Below, piece by piece: positions 10,931 to 18,281 of a stretch of DNA of 64,000 nucleotides. Both the position numbers and the translations under genes were made by a program. The stretch is from Streptomyces umbrinus (lineage in GTDB: Bacteria > Actinomycetota > Actinomycetes > Streptomycetales > Streptomycetaceae), in assembly GCF_030817415.1 (NCBI RefSeq), contig NZ_JAUSZI010000002.1:1116001-1180000 (forward strand), in the 5' to 3' direction. Position 1 is the first letter of the stretch. Each line of letters starts with the position of its first letter. The notes beneath the pieces were generated by a model that worked only from the letters and a program-made list of their open reading frames with translations, searched no databases and was not told the DNA's origin.

Positions 10931-13231
10931 ATGGAGCCACTTCGTCCCACGGATCCGGAGCACTTGGGACCGTACCGTCCTGTCGCGCGACTCGGCGCCG
11001 GAGGGATGGGGGAGGTCTTCCTCGCCCGGGACGATCAGCAGCGGACCGTGGCCGTCAAAGTCATCCGGCCGGAGCTGGCCGCGAACAGGGACTTCCGAAT
11101 CCGGTTCCGGCGCGAGGTGGACGCTGCGCGGGCAGTGAGCGGCAGGTACACGGCCACCGTCGTGGACGCCGACCCGGACGGCCCCGTCCCCTGGCTCGCC
11201 ACCGCGCACATCCTCGGTCCGACGCTGGCCGACGCGGTCGAGGAACACGGGCCGCTGCCACCGAAGTCGGTGCTCGCCCTCGGGGCCGGCCTCGCCGAGG
11301 CGCTGATCGCCGTGCACTCCGCGGGGCTGGTTCACCGCGATCTCAAACCGTCCAATGTGCTGCTCTCCGCCGAGGGCCCCCGGGTCATCGACTTCGGCAT
11401 CGTCCGAGCCACCGACGGCTACGAACTCACCCTGTCCGGTGTGCTGCTGGGCTCCCCGCGGTACATGTGCCCCGAGCACGCCACGGGTGACCCGATGGGC
11501 CCGGAGGGGGACGTGTTCTGTCTCGGCTCGGTCCTCGCCTTCGCCGCCACCGGGAACGCGCCCTTCGACGGTTCGTCGGCGGCCACCCTGCTGTACCAAG
11601 TGGTGCACGGTACACCGGATCTGACGGGTGTTCCGGATCCGCTGGACACCATCATCGAGCTCTGTCTCGACAAGTCCCCGACGGCCCGGCCCACTCCGGA
11701 CCGGGTGTCGGCGGCGTGCGCACCCGGTGGCGCCGACGCGCTGGACTGGGAGGGCTGGCTGCCGGAACCCGTGGCCGCCCGGATCAGTCAGCAGGCCGCC
11801 GACCTCATGGACCTGGACCTCGGGCCCGGATCGAGTGCGGACGTCGTCGAGCGGGAGCCCGCCCGCGCCCCCACCGGCCGCACGGCCGCCGCCGGTGTCC
11901 GCAGCGACCCGCGCGTGGCCGTTCAGCAACTCGTCACCGAGCGCCCGAGCTCCAGCCGTGTCGTCTTTCCCCATGCCCCGACGCCCAGCCCGCCGCCCGA
12001 GAAGTCGTCGCCCGACCCGGTCCCCCACCGCTCACGGCGACGGGCCCGGCCGCGCCCCTCCCGCCGTACGGTCCTCGCCGCCGCCGCGCTCGGCGTCGTC
12101 ACCCTTGGTTCCGGCGTCGCCGCACTCCTCGGTGAGCCGAAGGACCGGACCGAGCCGGCCCCGAAGCCGGCCGGTCCGGCGCCGAAGCCGCTGTGGGTCT
12201 ACCAGGGTGACGCGCTCGTCAAGGCACCGGCGACCTTCTACAAGGACACGGCCCTGCTGAAGTCGCAGTCGGGCGCGTTGTTCTGCCTCGGCCTCGCCGA
12301 CGGCACCCGCCCCCGGTGGACCTACCGGGGCGTCAGCCAGTCACCCACCCCGCCGCTCCTCGTCTCGGGCGACGTCGTCGCTCTCGGCACCGGCGCGACC
12401 GTGTTGGGCGTCGACCCGGTCACGGGCATCGAGCGGTTCTCCCTGGACTTCGGCGAGGACTTCCGGTTCGACACGCTGCTCGGCGGGTTCAGCGACCAGA
12501 GGGTCACCATCTCGGGTCTGCGGTTCAGCCGCCCGGACGGATCGCAGGGGTCGGCCACCTCCACGAACGTCGTCCTCAACACGGATCTGCGGGCGCGCCG
12601 GGCCAATGTCATCCCCATCAGCGAGGAGGACATCGGCCTCGATCTCAAGCCCGTCATGGCAGCCAGCCGCTTCGTCTACATGGACGGGCTGCACCGGCTC
12701 ACGGCCCGTGGCACCGCGAGCCGTGGGAACGTGCTGTGGCGCCGGCCCCTGAACTCCGACTCCGACGCCCGGTCGGCCCCGGTGGTGCTCGGCGGAACCG
12801 TCTTCGCCGTCGACAGCGAACTCATCGCCGTGGACCTGGAGTCCGGTGCGGTGCGCTGGCGGGTCAAGGAGGAGAAGGGCGGATTCGCCTCCGTCGCCGC
12901 CGCGGCCGGCACGGTGTACTGCACCACCAGGAACCCGCACGGCGTCCAGGCGTTCGACGCCGCCGACGGCACCCGGCGCTGGTTCCGCAGGACCCCTCGG
13001 CTCGATCTGGGCAACGCCCTCGTCGCGGGCGGCGGCTCGGTGTTCGTCACGGCCGCCCGCAACAGGGACGGGTTCTACGCGATCGACGCCCAACAGGGCG
13101 AGCTGCTCTGGAACTTCACAGACGGCCAGGACGCCGGCATCAACGACTGGCAACTCGCCTGCGACAGCAACGGCCCGCTGATCGCCCAGCACTTCAACAA
13201 GGTGTACGCCCTCCCGATACCCCGGGTCTGA
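10931..13231 (+). CDS. Membrane Ser/Thr protein kinase with PQQ-like beta-propeller ectodomain
   Basis: This is a 766-residue Hanks-type kinase. The catalytic domain (about 15-270) has the glycine loop LGAGGMGEV, Lys43 in VAVKVI, the catalytic loop HRDLKPSN with Asp137, and DFG in VIDFGIV. A proline-rich linker follows, then one membrane segment at about 379-400. The outside part (415-766) is a PQQ/WD-like beta propeller with repeats such as LIAVDLESGAVRWRV and FYAIDAQQGELLWNF. Propeller ectodomains of this kind are thought to sense extracellular ligands or wall fragments. It contains no PASTA repeats. A second, very similar kinase domain follows in tandem 63 bp downstream. Confidence 0.93.
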   Translation: MEPLRPTDPEHLGPYRPVARLGAGGMGEVFLARDDQQRTVAVKVIRPELAANRDFRIRFRREVDAARAVSGRYTATVVDADPDGPVPWLATAHILGPTLADAVEEHGPLPPKSVLALGAGLAEALIAVHSAGLVHRDLKPSNVLLSAEGPRVIDFGIVRATDGYELTLSGVLLGSPRYMCPEHATGDPMGPEGDVFCLGSVLAFAATGNAPFDGSSAATLLYQVVHGTPDLTGVPDPLDTIIELCLDKSPTARPTPDRVSAACAPGGADALDWEGWLPEPVAARISQQAADLMDLDLGPGSSADVVEREPARAPTGRTAAAGVRSDPRVAVQQLVTERPSSSRVVFPHAPTPSPPPEKSSPDPVPHRSRRRARPRPSRRTVLAAAALGVVTLGSGVAALLGEPKDRTEPAPKPAGPAPKPLWVYQGDALVKAPATFYKDTALLKSQSGALFCLGLADGTRPRWTYRGVSQSPTPPLLVSGDVVALGTGATVLGVDPVTGIERFSLDFGEDFRFDTLLGGFSDQRVTISGLRFSRPDGSQGSATSTNVVLNTDLRARRANVIPISEEDIGLDLKPVMAASRFVYMDGLHRLTARGTASRGNVLWRRPLNSDSDARSAPVVLGGTVFAVDSELIAVDLESGAVRWRVKEEKGGFASVAAAAGTVYCTTRNPHGVQAFDAADGTRRWFRRTPRLDLGNALVAGGGSVFVTAARNRDGFYAIDAQQGELLWNFTDGQDAGINDWQLACDSNGPLIAQHFNKVYALPIPRV

Positions 13232-13294: not shown

Positions 13295-14518
13295 GTGTTG
13301 AGCAACGGTGGGCCCGGCGCGGAAGGTTTCCAGCCGCTGGAGGACGGCGATCCGCGGATCGTGGGCGGCTACCGGCTGGTGGCGCGGCTCGGGTCCGGCG
13401 GTATGGGGCGGGTCTATCTCTCACACACGCCGGGCGGACGGGCCGTCGCCGTCAAGGTGATCCGGCCCGAGCTGGCCGAGAACGCCGAGTTCCGCAAACG
13501 GTTCCAGGCCGAGGTGGCGGCCGCGAGCCGGGTGCACGGGCTCTATACGGCCCCGGTCGTGGACAGCGACACCGAAGGCTCCGTCCCGTGGTGCGCGACC
13601 GCCTATGTGCCGGGTCCGTCCCTCGCCGACGCGATACGCGACCACGGGCCACTGCCGGTCGACACCGTGCTGCGGCTGATCGCCGGTGTCGCGGAGGCGC
13701 TGCAGGCGGTGCATCGCGAGGGCATCGTGCACCGCGACCTCAAGCCGTCGAACGTGCTGCTCGCCGACGACGGCCCACGCGTCATCGACTTCGGTGTCGC
13801 ACGGGCGGCCGACGCCACCTCGGTGACGCAGAGCGGCATGGCTCTCGGCACGGTCGCCTACATGGCCCCGGAACAGGCGCTCGGCGGCGAGGCCGCCCCC
13901 TCGGCCGACGTGTTCGCGCTGGGGCAGACCGCCGTGTTCGCCTCGACGGGCAGCGGCGCCTTCGGGGACGGGGACGCGCACGCGGTGCTCTACCGGGTGG
14001 TGCACGAACAGCCCGACCTCGGCCAAGTGCCCGAGGAGATACGGGAGTTGGTGGCGCGGTGTCTGCGCAAGCCCGCCGCCGAGCGGCCTTCCGTCGAGGA
14101 GGTCATCCGCTCTGTCCAGACGATCCAGGCGCATCGCGGTGACGAGGCCCGGTACACATCGGGGGCATGGCTGCCGGGCAAGCTGGCGGCGGGCATAGCG
14201 GCTCGTGCCGAAGGAGCCCATCAGGCCCACGCCCAGGCTCAGGCAGAGGCGGCTCCGAACTCTCAAGGTTCCGGCGGATTCGGGGCCCCAGGTTCTGGCG
14301 GTTTCGGGACCGCGGACTCCGAAGGCTTCGGGACCGCGGGCTCAGGCGGCGGCTTCGGCCCCGCCGGCTCCGGCGGTTTCAGCCCCGCGGCGGCCTACTC
14401 CCCCACCTCGCCGTCCCACGCGGCCCAGTCCCATGCCGCGCAGTCCCACGCCGCGCTGCCCGGACCGTTTGTGATGGGGAGTCCGGCCGCACCGGGTGCG
14501 TACACACCGACTCCTTAG
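13295..14518 (+). CDS. Ser/Thr protein kinase, truncated after the linker by an in-frame TAG
   Basis: As read, this is a 407-residue protein with a complete Hanks kinase domain (about 25-290): LGSGGMGRV, Lys54 in VAVKVI, HRDLKPSN with Asp148, DFG in VIDFGVAR, and APE in MAPEQALGG. The linker contains imperfect GSGGFG and SHAAQ repeats. Translation stops at TAG 14516-14518, inside a Pro/Gln run that continues in the same frame with a membrane segment and ectodomain to 15277. CAG at that codon would restore a 660-residue receptor kinase. The GTG at 13295 is chosen because GGAG precedes it; the upstream ATG at 13259 has no ribosome site. If the stop is real, the product is a soluble kinase. Confidence 0.85.
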   Translation: MLSNGGPGAEGFQPLEDGDPRIVGGYRLVARLGSGGMGRVYLSHTPGGRAVAVKVIRPELAENAEFRKRFQAEVAAASRVHGLYTAPVVDSDTEGSVPWCATAYVPGPSLADAIRDHGPLPVDTVLRLIAGVAEALQAVHREGIVHRDLKPSNVLLADDGPRVIDFGVARAADATSVTQSGMALGTVAYMAPEQALGGEAAPSADVFALGQTAVFASTGSGAFGDGDAHAVLYRVVHEQPDLGQVPEEIRELVARCLRKPAAERPSVEEVIRSVQTIQAHRGDEARYTSGAWLPGKLAAGIAARAEGAHQAHAQAQAEAAPNSQGSGGFGAPGSGGFGTADSEGFGTAGSGGGFGPAGSGGFSPAAAYSPTSPSHAAQSHAAQSHAALPGPFVMGSPAAPGAYTPTP

Positions 14519-15277
14519 CCCCAACCGCAGGAGCCGGCCGCCGCGCAGACCTCCCCGGTCAGCACGGACGGCGCGGGCCGCGGGGCCCGGCCCTGGGTGC
14601 TGTCGGCGGCCGCAGTCGTGCTCGTCGCCGGTGGGGCGGCCGCCGCGCTGCTGCTCGTCCAGGGGGAAGGCGACAAGGACGACACCGGGTCCGCGGAGGT
14701 GGCCGCGTCGCAGTCGGCTCCGAAAGCCGAGAAGTCCCCGTCGGCGTCCGGCTCCCCGTCCACCAAGGCGTCGAAGAAGCCGAAGCCCGACAAGTCCGTG
14801 CTGCCGTCCGGCCCTTCGGGGCCCGCGACACCCACACAGGCTCCGAACCCGGCTCCCCCGGCCGCGTCCAGCGAGCCCGCGGCGCCCAAGGCCCCTGCCC
14901 CGGTGACGTACTCCGCGATCCGGATGACCGCGAGCCACGACCTGTATCTGGCGGACACCCCGGTGCGCCCCAAGGCGGACACCGGCAGCTCGGACGAGGA
15001 TCTGACCTACGCCGTCTACTCCTCGGGCGCGGTCCTCGCCCCCGGCACCACCTCCGGCAGCTCCCTCGCCCTGCTGCCGGCGGGGCGGCAGGGAGGCGTG
15101 GAGGCGTGCAAGGGCGCGACCGGCTACAAGAGTTACATCTGGATCAAGGACCTGACCGCCGGCCAGCAGATGTGCGTCCTCAGCGGAACGGGACACGTGG
15201 GGCTGGTGACGTACCAGGGTTCGTCAGGCACGACGTACGCCACCTTGGACGTGAAGGTGTGGCGCGACGCTGTCTAG
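14516..15277 (+). pseudogene. Detached membrane and extracellular part of the second kinase
   Basis: This stretch is in the same frame as the kinase at 13295-14518, beginning with its TAG stop. It encodes PQPQEPAAAQTSP, then a membrane helix (VLSAAAVVLVAGGAAAALLLV), a Ser/Pro/Lys-rich extracellular stalk, and a small ectodomain of about 120 residues (YSAIRMTASHDLYLAD ... YATLDVKVW) typical of Streptomyces kinases. The GTG at 14597 could open a shorter frame, but no ribosome site precedes it, so independent translation is unlikely. Codon use and conservation of the frame after the stop argue that the nonsense change is very recent, is suppressed, or is a base-call error. Confidence 0.8.
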
Positions 15278-15332: not shown

Positions 15333-18281
15333 CTACAACTCCTGGTCCCCGAAGGGGAGCGCGTCCAGGTCCCCGTCGAACTCCCCGACGTTCGGGAGCA
15401 TCAGCTCCAGGGCTTCCGACGGCTCGTCCTTGCGGCTGTCCGGGCCCAGGAGTGCCTGCTCGGTCCAGATGCATTTTCCGGTCGCGGTGTAGCGCGTGCC
15501 CCAGCGCCGGGAGAGTGCCGTGATCAGCTGCAGGCCGCGCCCGCCCTCGTCGGTGTCCGTCGCCCGGCGGATGCGGGGCATCGTCAGGCTGCCGTCGAAG
15601 ACCTCGCAGACCAGCTCGTCGTCGTGCAGGAGGCGCAGGCTGACGGGGCCCTTGGCATGGCGTACGACGTTGCCGACCAGTTCGCTGGCCAGGAGTTCCG
15701 TGGTCGGTGTCAGGCTGTCGAGGCCCCAGGCGGAGAGCTGCTCACGGACGTGGCGGCGGGCCTGGCCTGCCGCCCTGGGGTCCTCGGGCAGCGACCAGGA
15801 GGCCATCCTCTCCACGGGCAGGGCGTGCAGCCGGGCGACGAGGAGCGCCGCGTCGTCGGCGGCCTGGTGCTCGGCGGGGAGAAGACCGGCCGTGAGGGTG
15901 TCGCAGAGACGTTCCAGACGATCGCGCTCCCCGTCCGGGTCCACGTCTGTGATGTGTGCCGCGCGCAGCAGCCCGGCCAGGTCCGCCATGCCCTCGTCGA
16001 TCTCGCGCGTGGACGACTCCACGAGACCGTCGGTGTAGAGCACGAGCAGGCTGCCCTCCGGCACCGCCAACTCGACCGTCTCGAAGGGTGGTTCGGCCGC
16101 GCCCAGCGGAGGGTCGGGGGCCAGTTCCGGAAAGTGGACCCTGCCGTCGGGGTGGACCACGGCCGGCGGGGGATGGCCTGCCCGGGTGATGGAGCAGATC
16201 TGCGTGGTCGAGTCGTACAGCGCGTACAGGCAGGTGACGTACGACTCCTCGCCCATGCCGCCGACGATGTCGTTCAGATGGCTCATGATCTCGTCGGGCG
16301 GCAGTTCCAGGTCGGCGAGGGTGTGGACCGCCGTGCGCAGGCGGCCCATCGTCGCCGCCTCCGGCAGGCCGTGGCCCATCACGTCGCCGACCACCAGGGC
16401 CACCTGGCCGCCCGAGAGCGGGATGATGTCGTACCAGTCGCCCCCCACGTCCATGCCCTGTCCCGCGGGGAGGTAGCGGGCCGCCGCCGTGCAGGCCGAC
16501 GGGGTGGGCAGGTCCCGGGGGAGCAGGCTGCGCTGGAGTTCGCGGGATCGGTCGTGTTCGGCGTCGTAGAGCCTCGCCCGTTCCAGGGCCTGGGCGACCA
16601 GGGCGCTGATGGTGGTCAGCAGGGTGCGTTCGTCGTCGGTGAGGCGGCGCGGGCGGTCGAAGGCCACGACACAGACACCGAAGGTGACGCCGGACGCCGT
16701 CAGCGGCAGGAACGCCCACGCCTGTTTGCCCGCGCGCCCGGGCAGATCGGCCTGTCCCGGTGAACGCGCGACGAGTTCTTCGACGGAGGACAGGAAGAGC
16801 GGCGTGTCGGACGTGATCGCGTCCCAGCCCGGGTCGCCGGACATCCGCGGGCGGCGGTCGACGCTCGCGAGGAAGCCGTCCGGATAGCCGACCGCTCCCA
16901 CGGTGTGCAGCAACTCGCCCTCGACCGTCTGCACCAACAGTCCGGCGGCGGCGAACGGCGGCAGCACCCGCGGGGCGAGGGCGTCCACCACGTCCCGCGA
17001 GGTCGTCGCCTTCGCGAGCGCGGCCGTCAGCTCGGCTATCTGGGCGGCGCGTTCGGACGCGACCCGCTCGGCGGCCTGACGCTCCTCCTCGTGCCGCCGC
17101 CTCTCGGTGACGTCGGTGAAGTAGAGGGTGCGGCCGTCGGGACCGGGGACCAGCCGCAGATGGTAGCGGCGGTCGCCCTCCGGTATGTGTACGTCGAAGC
17201 TGGCGGGCTTGTCCTCCGCCGCGGCCTTGCGAAAGCGGCTCTCCATGCCGGACACCCGCTGCGCGGTGGGCAGTTCCCACAGGACACGCCCGAACAGCTC
17301 CTCCTCGGAGAGGCCCAGCGTGCGTTCCGCCTCCAGGTTGGCGAAGGTGATCCGCCACTCGTCGTCGAACGCCAGGAAGCCGTCGCTCATATGGCGCAGG
17401 GCGCGGCTGAGTGCGTCACGGGCGGACCGGGATTCGTTGCTCTCCCAGCCCACGCCGATCATCCGGAGGGGTTCGCCGTGTTCGTCGTACGTCGCCCGGC
17501 CGCGGGCCTGGGTCCAGCCGTACGTGCCGTCCAGGCCTCGGACGCGGTACTCCGCCTCGTACACCGTGTGGTCGCGGATCGCCCGCTGCGCGGCGCCCAG
17601 CGTCGGGGCGAGGTCGTCGGGGTGGACGATCCTCATCCAGTTCTCGATCTTGCCGGTGAAATCGGCCGGTCTGGTGCCGTAGAGCTCCAGGGCCGCCTCG
17701 TCCCAGATCAGGTCGCCGGTGCGGATGTCCCAGTCCCAGGAGCCGACGCTGACCTCCTTGAGGGCCTGCCGGAGGCGCTCGCCGCTGAGTTCGGTCTGCG
17801 CGGGCCCGGCCGGCGGGGTCGCCTGCGCCATGCGTTCCTCGGTCCAGGCGATCACGGCGCGCAGGAAGTCCCACTGCTCCGGGGTGGGTTCGCCCCCCGC
17901 ACCCATGACGACGGAGAGGGCACCGATGGTGCGGTCCCCGCTGGACAGCGGGGCGGCCGCCAGCCCGCTTCCCGGCCAGGTGCCCTCCACCGGCAGGGCC
18001 TGTCCGGTCGGTGTCCGCGGCGCCCAGACGCCGCTGCCCTGGTGCAGGGCGCGGGCGGGGGCCAGGGGGCCCTCCTGGTCGATGATCTCCCAGGCCCGCG
18101 TGAGGACCGGCGGGAGACCGGCGGCGGACACCAGCCGCAGGGCGGACATGGGGCCGCGAAGGTGGATCATCCCTCCCAGCGCACCGAGCTCGCCCACCGC
18201 GTGCTGGAGCGCCAACCGGAAGATCTCGCTCTCCGCGACACCTGGTTCCACCGTGCTGAGCAGAGCCAGCCGTGCGTTCAT
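15333..18281 (-). CDS. SpoIIE-type PP2C phosphatase with GAF-PAS-PAS-GAF sensors and HATPase domain
   Basis: This is a 982-residue soluble signalling protein. Domains in order: GAF (about 1-155), PAS with PAC (175-290; VGSWDWDIRTGDLIWDEAAL), second PAS (295-400; SDGFLAFDDEWRITFANLEAE), GAF (430-580), SpoIIE phosphatase (600-810; GGDWYD and GDVMGHG metal motifs), and HATPase_c (830-950; ELVGNVVRHAKG and GGRGLQLI). It probably acts on STAS anti-anti-sigma proteins and may have both phosphatase and kinase activity. The start at 18281 has no clear Shine-Dalgarno sequence and is preceded by an AT-rich stretch unusual for this genome. The gene is convergent with the kinase pair and divergent from rutA. 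Confidence 0.92.
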   Translation of the reverse strand: MNARLALLSTVEPGVAESEIFRLALQHAVGELGALGGMIHLRGPMSALRLVSAAGLPPVLTRAWEIIDQEGPLAPARALHQGSGVWAPRTPTGQALPVEGTWPGSGLAAAPLSSGDRTIGALSVVMGAGGEPTPEQWDFLRAVIAWTEERMAQATPPAGPAQTELSGERLRQALKEVSVGSWDWDIRTGDLIWDEAALELYGTRPADFTGKIENWMRIVHPDDLAPTLGAAQRAIRDHTVYEAEYRVRGLDGTYGWTQARGRATYDEHGEPLRMIGVGWESNESRSARDALSRALRHMSDGFLAFDDEWRITFANLEAERTLGLSEEELFGRVLWELPTAQRVSGMESRFRKAAAEDKPASFDVHIPEGDRRYHLRLVPGPDGRTLYFTDVTERRRHEEERQAAERVASERAAQIAELTAALAKATTSRDVVDALAPRVLPPFAAAGLLVQTVEGELLHTVGAVGYPDGFLASVDRRPRMSGDPGWDAITSDTPLFLSSVEELVARSPGQADLPGRAGKQAWAFLPLTASGVTFGVCVVAFDRPRRLTDDERTLLTTISALVAQALERARLYDAEHDRSRELQRSLLPRDLPTPSACTAAARYLPAGQGMDVGGDWYDIIPLSGGQVALVVGDVMGHGLPEAATMGRLRTAVHTLADLELPPDEIMSHLNDIVGGMGEESYVTCLYALYDSTTQICSITRAGHPPPAVVHPDGRVHFPELAPDPPLGAAEPPFETVELAVPEGSLLVLYTDGLVESSTREIDEGMADLAGLLRAAHITDVDPDGERDRLERLCDTLTAGLLPAEHQAADDAALLVARLHALPVERMASWSLPEDPRAAGQARRHVREQLSAWGLDSLTPTTELLASELVGNVVRHAKGPVSLRLLHDDELVCEVFDGSLTMPRIRRATDTDEGGRGLQLITALSRRWGTRYTATGKCIWTEQALLGPDSRKDEPSEALELMLPNVGEFDGDLDALPFGDQEL

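Follow-up and report, generated by a model that had tools for sequence, protein, structure and literature searches.

A probable recent nonsense mutation separates a Streptomyces umbrinus receptor-type kinase from its membrane helix and outer domain

Results

A kinase frame interrupted by a stop codon

The window, by which we mean the whole 64,000-nucleotide stretch of Streptomyces umbrinus DNA that was analysed, carries on its plus strand a frame that starts at GTG 13295, runs for 407 codons and ends at a TAG at 14516-14518. Beyond this codon the same frame stays open for 252 more codons, until a TAG at 15275-15277. An earlier note on this DNA had described a kinase at 13295-14518 that stops at TAG and is followed by 252 in-frame codons encoding a linker, membrane helix and ectodomain; in positions, frame and content this description proved accurate. 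The features of the locus are listed below.

13295..14518, + strand: serine/threonine kinase frame cut short at 407 aa (starts at GTG; TPTP precedes the stop; the start of P0089 matches)
13370..14110, + strand: protein kinase domain, residues 26-272 (Pfam PF00069 and alignment; HRDLKPSN, DFG and APE intact)
14195..14515, + strand: Gly/Phe- and Pro/Ala-rich cytoplasmic linker, residues 301-407 (alignment)
14516..14518, + strand: premature TAG, a Trp codon (TGG) in the closest relatives
14519..15277, + strand: orphaned remainder of the reading frame, still open (252 codons, then TAG)
14597..14659, + strand: membrane segment, residues ~435-455 (hydropathy peak; GTG 14597 is the first possible in-frame restart)
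14903..15274, + strand: outer domain, residues 537-660 (Pfam, PDB and alignment searches)

The protein collection holds the window's own product as P0089, a protein of 407 residues whose entry comprises two member sequences on one contig. Pfam recognises a protein kinase domain (PF00069) at residues 26-272 with an E-value of 4.8e-36 and 124.9 bits against a cut-off of 31.7, and the alignment contains the motifs VAVK, HRDLKPSN, DFG and APE, which we take to be the catalytic Lys, HRD, DFG and APE motifs; on both counts the domain is of the Hanks type. In a hydropathy scan the strongest membrane segment lies at residues ~435-455, beyond the stop. A receptor-type kinase would have its helix and outer domain within the translated frame; here both are 3' of the TAG at 14516-14518. 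Neither an Rfam nor a tRNA scan gave a hit in the window.

Two cysteines of the outer domain are invariant in 48 aligned sequences. Beyond the stop (residues 409-660) no Pfam family was recognised, so this part is not a PASTA region, and the gene does not belong with the PASTA kinases of the PknB/StkP/PrkC type. A PDB sequence search with the outer domain gave no matches at E <= 1. The structure model of this domain has a mean pLDDT of 70, and its comparison with the PDB gave no match at E <= 0.001; the best one, 4ei0, was set aside as a fold relative at an E-value of 0.015 and a TM-score of 0.38.

Relatives encode both parts in one protein

Two protein searches were performed. The first scored the 7997 candidates sharing most words with the query and returned 106 proteins, including P0089. 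The second, with residues 290-407 (before the stop) as query and shorter proteins admitted, returned 46 proteins, among which there was no 407-residue form other than P0089. The 18 closest orthologues (P0002-P0019) each consist of one protein, 631-675 residues long, with 91-96% identity to the read-through frame; one of them (P0003) is without the first 36 residues. Their named sources are Streptomyces phaeochromogenes, S. umbrinus, S. liliifuscus and unclassified Streptomyces. Since both parts are present in one protein in 18/18 of these relatives, they constitute one gene and not a chance juxtaposition. Across both searches, the outer domain is mostly kept in 103 of 106 other homologues, a ratio biased towards intact genes because the first search favoured proteins with an outer domain. 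In P0103, P0106 and P0088 the outer domain is lost or garbled, apparently through frame changes elsewhere in the linker or outer domain.

Of 391 further genomes, sampled evenly from a larger number in the genus, nine matched the outer-domain DNA with an E-value below 1e-100; this count is a lower bound, as a DNA query misses distant orthologues. The downstream gene (15333-18281, minus strand) is also found beside the orthologue in S. phaeochromogenes NRRL B-1248 (L002), with 95.6% protein identity. Directly upstream, at 10931-13231, lies a second kinase with PQQ repeats. Within the fetched flanks of the orthologues in L003-L013, a search for this neighbour gave only kinase-domain matches to the orthologue itself, so that within this reach the second kinase is not seen beside it.

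Elsewhere in the same genome, outside the window, a 73 kb contig (C3; region G000:C3:55000-72000, L014) carries three tRNA genes, for Lys (CTT), Ile (UAU) and Leu (UAA). Decoding of UUA by bldA controls Streptomyces development, which makes a second Leu-UAA tRNA on this contig worthy of attention.

The stop replaces a tryptophan codon

Orthologues that all stop at the same codon, which the earlier note had named as counting against its reading, were looked for, and no relative examined stops there: the stop is absent from the 18 closest proteins and from the 23 matched DNA loci (24 given, some of them one genome twice). In the protein alignment the position is Trp in 18/18 closest orthologues, P0002-P0019, whereas this strain has a stop. 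A codon-by-codon comparison with the DNA loci of eight relatives gave TGG in seven and GGG in one, and TGG is the codon in S. phaeochromogenes NRRL B-1248, the nearest relative among the DNA loci compared. In the 105 proteins aligned, this position is Trp in 59, Gly in 22, a gap in 7, Ala in 5, Val in 4, Arg in 3, Pro in 3, Asp in 1, Glu in 1 and Gln in none, the alignment being approximate for distant members in the low-complexity stretch around the stop. The DNA loci, of which 23/24 were matched, have Trp in 13, Gly in 5, Gln in 3, Tyr in 1, a gap in 1 and a stop in none; several of the 24 look like one genome fetched from two collections and they do not amount to 23 independent cases. In each of the three rows with Gln (L075, L011 and L103) a Trp stands two residues upstream, and we therefore take the aligner's Gln to be an alignment shift.

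The Trp and its TGG codon in the relatives imply that the change is G-to-A at 14517, TGG to TAG: a single step away from the codon of the relatives and observed in a single genome, as expected of a recent nonsense mutation. The idea in the earlier note of a single-base nonsense change dividing a receptor kinase is thus upheld, the closest relatives encoding both parts uninterrupted, while its molecular details need to be replaced. It had taken the original codon to be CAG, altered by a C-to-T change at 14516, within a uniform Pro/Gln linker. Gln occurs in 0/105 aligned proteins, against Trp in 18/18 of the closest, the nearest relative has TGG, and the linker of the relatives is not uniform at this position but has tryptophan there.

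Substitutions on the two sides of the stop

The downstream frame has neither a further stop nor a frameshift. In four places this strain carries a substitution in it at a position that does not vary among the 18 closest relatives (P456Q, G541A, S601G and I629L). Counting private changes at otherwise invariant columns, this strain has three before and four after the stop, and the 18 others range from 0 to 7 before and from 0 to 6 after its position; branch lengths on both sides are likewise inside the range of the family. Codon changes were counted by parsimony on the loci of eight relatives. Downstream of the stop, since the split from S. phaeochromogenes NRRL B-1248, the strain's own branch has 10 nonsynonymous and 9 synonymous changes, versus 6 and 13 on the other branch (Fisher p = 0.32). 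These few data display neither clear decay nor clear protection; they fit a stop younger than most of the strain's own branch, and they also fit a base error. In the repeat-rich linker as far as the stop codon, which is included, the alignment is unreliable; there the own branch has 2 synonymous changes and 8 nonsynonymous ones, the stop among the latter, versus 5 synonymous and 0 nonsynonymous on the other. Constraint might have been relaxed on this side of the stop too, but because of the alignment we draw nothing from these counts. The statement in the earlier note that nothing downstream has decayed is therefore true of the frame, which is open and stop-free, and less so of the residues, four of which have changed at invariant positions; protection of the downstream part is not demonstrable.

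Discussion

In our view this locus is best explained by a nonsense mutation that arose recently in the strain and leaves a soluble kinase lacking its sensor, with a probability of roughly 0.7. Broadly, the case is most likely an ordinary one, a recently broken copy or a sequencing error, with no new mechanism involved. The earlier note had left three options side by side, namely a soluble kinase, a stop that is read through and a wrong base. The first is now the best supported, nothing positive was found for the second, and the third is improbable but deserves real weight.

If the base were wrong, through an error of sequencing or assembly, the strain would make a normal full-length receptor kinase. 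Consistent with this, the TAG is the sole defect in an otherwise open frame, it was seen in no other sequence found, and substitution rates on either side of it are within the range of intact relatives. Nonetheless, the assembly statistics are favourable, with 12.4 Mb in 3 contigs, 100% completeness and 2.1% contamination. In 529 kb scanned by base composition, 29 stops were flagged, but no clear case of a broken gene was read among them; by eye, from sequence and composition, they appeared to be mostly antisense shadows, with a few ordinary neighbouring genes. The scan is weak, since the target stop itself went unflagged. Moreover, the motif CCTTGG, which surrounds the site, occurs 308 times in 512 kb, versus 313 expected, and shows no depletion, with TTGGCC (226 versus 268 expected) and TTGGCCC (40 versus 54) somewhat low. 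We accordingly regard an error as unlikely, at odds well short of even.

Partial readthrough of the TAG, which would yield mostly soluble and little membrane-bound kinase, appears very unlikely to us. The intact downstream frame would suit it, and the Pro before the stop could slow termination: in E. coli, according to PMC7246954, citing Hayes et al. 2002, a C-terminal proline stalls termination and induces ssrA tagging. However, in the library of the same paper a C-terminal Pro gave no significant change in expression. Furthermore, the stop is absent from every relative examined, so it is not a conserved one, and the downstream nonsynonymous count is no lower than that of the sister branch. 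A tRNA family search of the whole genome identified 73 genes, and ARAGORN read 73 in the stretches covering them; none has the anticodon CUA (0/73), although an ordinary near-cognate tRNA might still read the codon. TAG ends 70 of 298 sampled coding frames, with C as the next base in 25 of these 70, and Pro is the C-terminal residue at 27 of 298 sampled frame ends. Both the stop and its context are thus ordinary in this genome, and recoding or a suppressor tRNA finds no support on the same grounds, TAG being a normal stop here and CUA missing among the 73 anticodons. In line with a recent mutation, a published survey reports that most in-frame stops in bacterial genes last only briefly on an evolutionary scale; it required a stop in two or more species before readthrough was argued (Belinky et al. 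2021, PMC7918605). Among the matches listed for stop codon readthrough in Streptomyces, none was recognised, from their partial texts, as concerning the window kinase.

Alternatively, the two pieces could be made separately, with a restart at GTG 14597 producing a stand-alone anchored outer domain. We find this hardly credible. The codon does sit at the edge of the membrane helix, but it is 78 bases 3' of the stop and no ribosome-binding site was recognised before it by eye. In the 18 closest relatives the residue is Met, Ile or Leu within an uninterrupted protein, so the GTG is probably coincidental. The stop may still be compatible with a downstream part that is in use, the strain's own lineage not being clearly relaxed there. 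A further idea is that loss of the sensor is advantageous and recurrent, with the disordered linker as the site at which lineages turn a membrane receptor kinase into a cytosolic one that is free and independent of signal. In addition to this strain, three homologues (P0103, P0106 and P0088) out of 106 others would speak for it, and we hold it to be a long shot.

Under the preferred reading of a nonsense mutation, the ancestor would have been a Ser/Thr kinase of receptor type, about 660 residues long, in which a flexible linker joined the cytoplasmic kinase to a single membrane helix and a small outer domain. Comparison shows that, if the base is right, the TGG of its linker became TAG by one G-to-A transition at 14517. 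Ribosomes would then stop at the TAG and free a 407-residue cytosolic protein, its kinase domain intact, without anchor or sensor. This freed kinase would no longer be coupled to the outside signal, its use would probably be reduced or misdirected, and the 252 downstream codons would be an untranslated remnant too young for decay. In StkP of Streptococcus pneumoniae the membrane-adjacent linker is disordered and needed to phosphorylate some substrates (PMC12077195). By analogy, loss of the anchor might alter what gets phosphorylated.

For annotation, we suggest labelling the gene a probable nonsense allele; the receptor kinase in question occurs in part of the genus, and the ancestral residue to be given is Trp and not Gln. 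Should the base prove real, this strain would offer a natural test of the action of a sensor-less kinase. The outer domain, unmatched in Pfam and the PDB, could additionally interest students of Streptomyces signal sensing.

The family has well-studied counterparts. By sequence, the kinase domain of the window kinase's relatives is related to those of PknA and PknB of mycobacteria and StkP of Streptococcus; a profile of these relatives matched PDB entries of PknA with a best E-value of 1.2e-46, PknB with 3.1e-43 and StkP with 3.6e-39. The order of kinase, linker, membrane helix and outer domain is that of receptor-type Hanks Ser/Thr kinases and is common to the intact relatives. However, PknB and StkP have a PASTA outer domain, whereas the outer domain of the window gene matches no Pfam family, and in this strain, unlike in PknA, PknB and StkP, helix and outer domain are severed by the stop. 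As an event, the mutation resembles the in-frame stops described by Belinky et al. (2021), where a gene that is otherwise conserved is likewise hit by one nonsense substitution and shows no clear decay. That study asked for a stop in at least two species before arguing for readthrough, in contrast to the window stop, which is found in one genome only.
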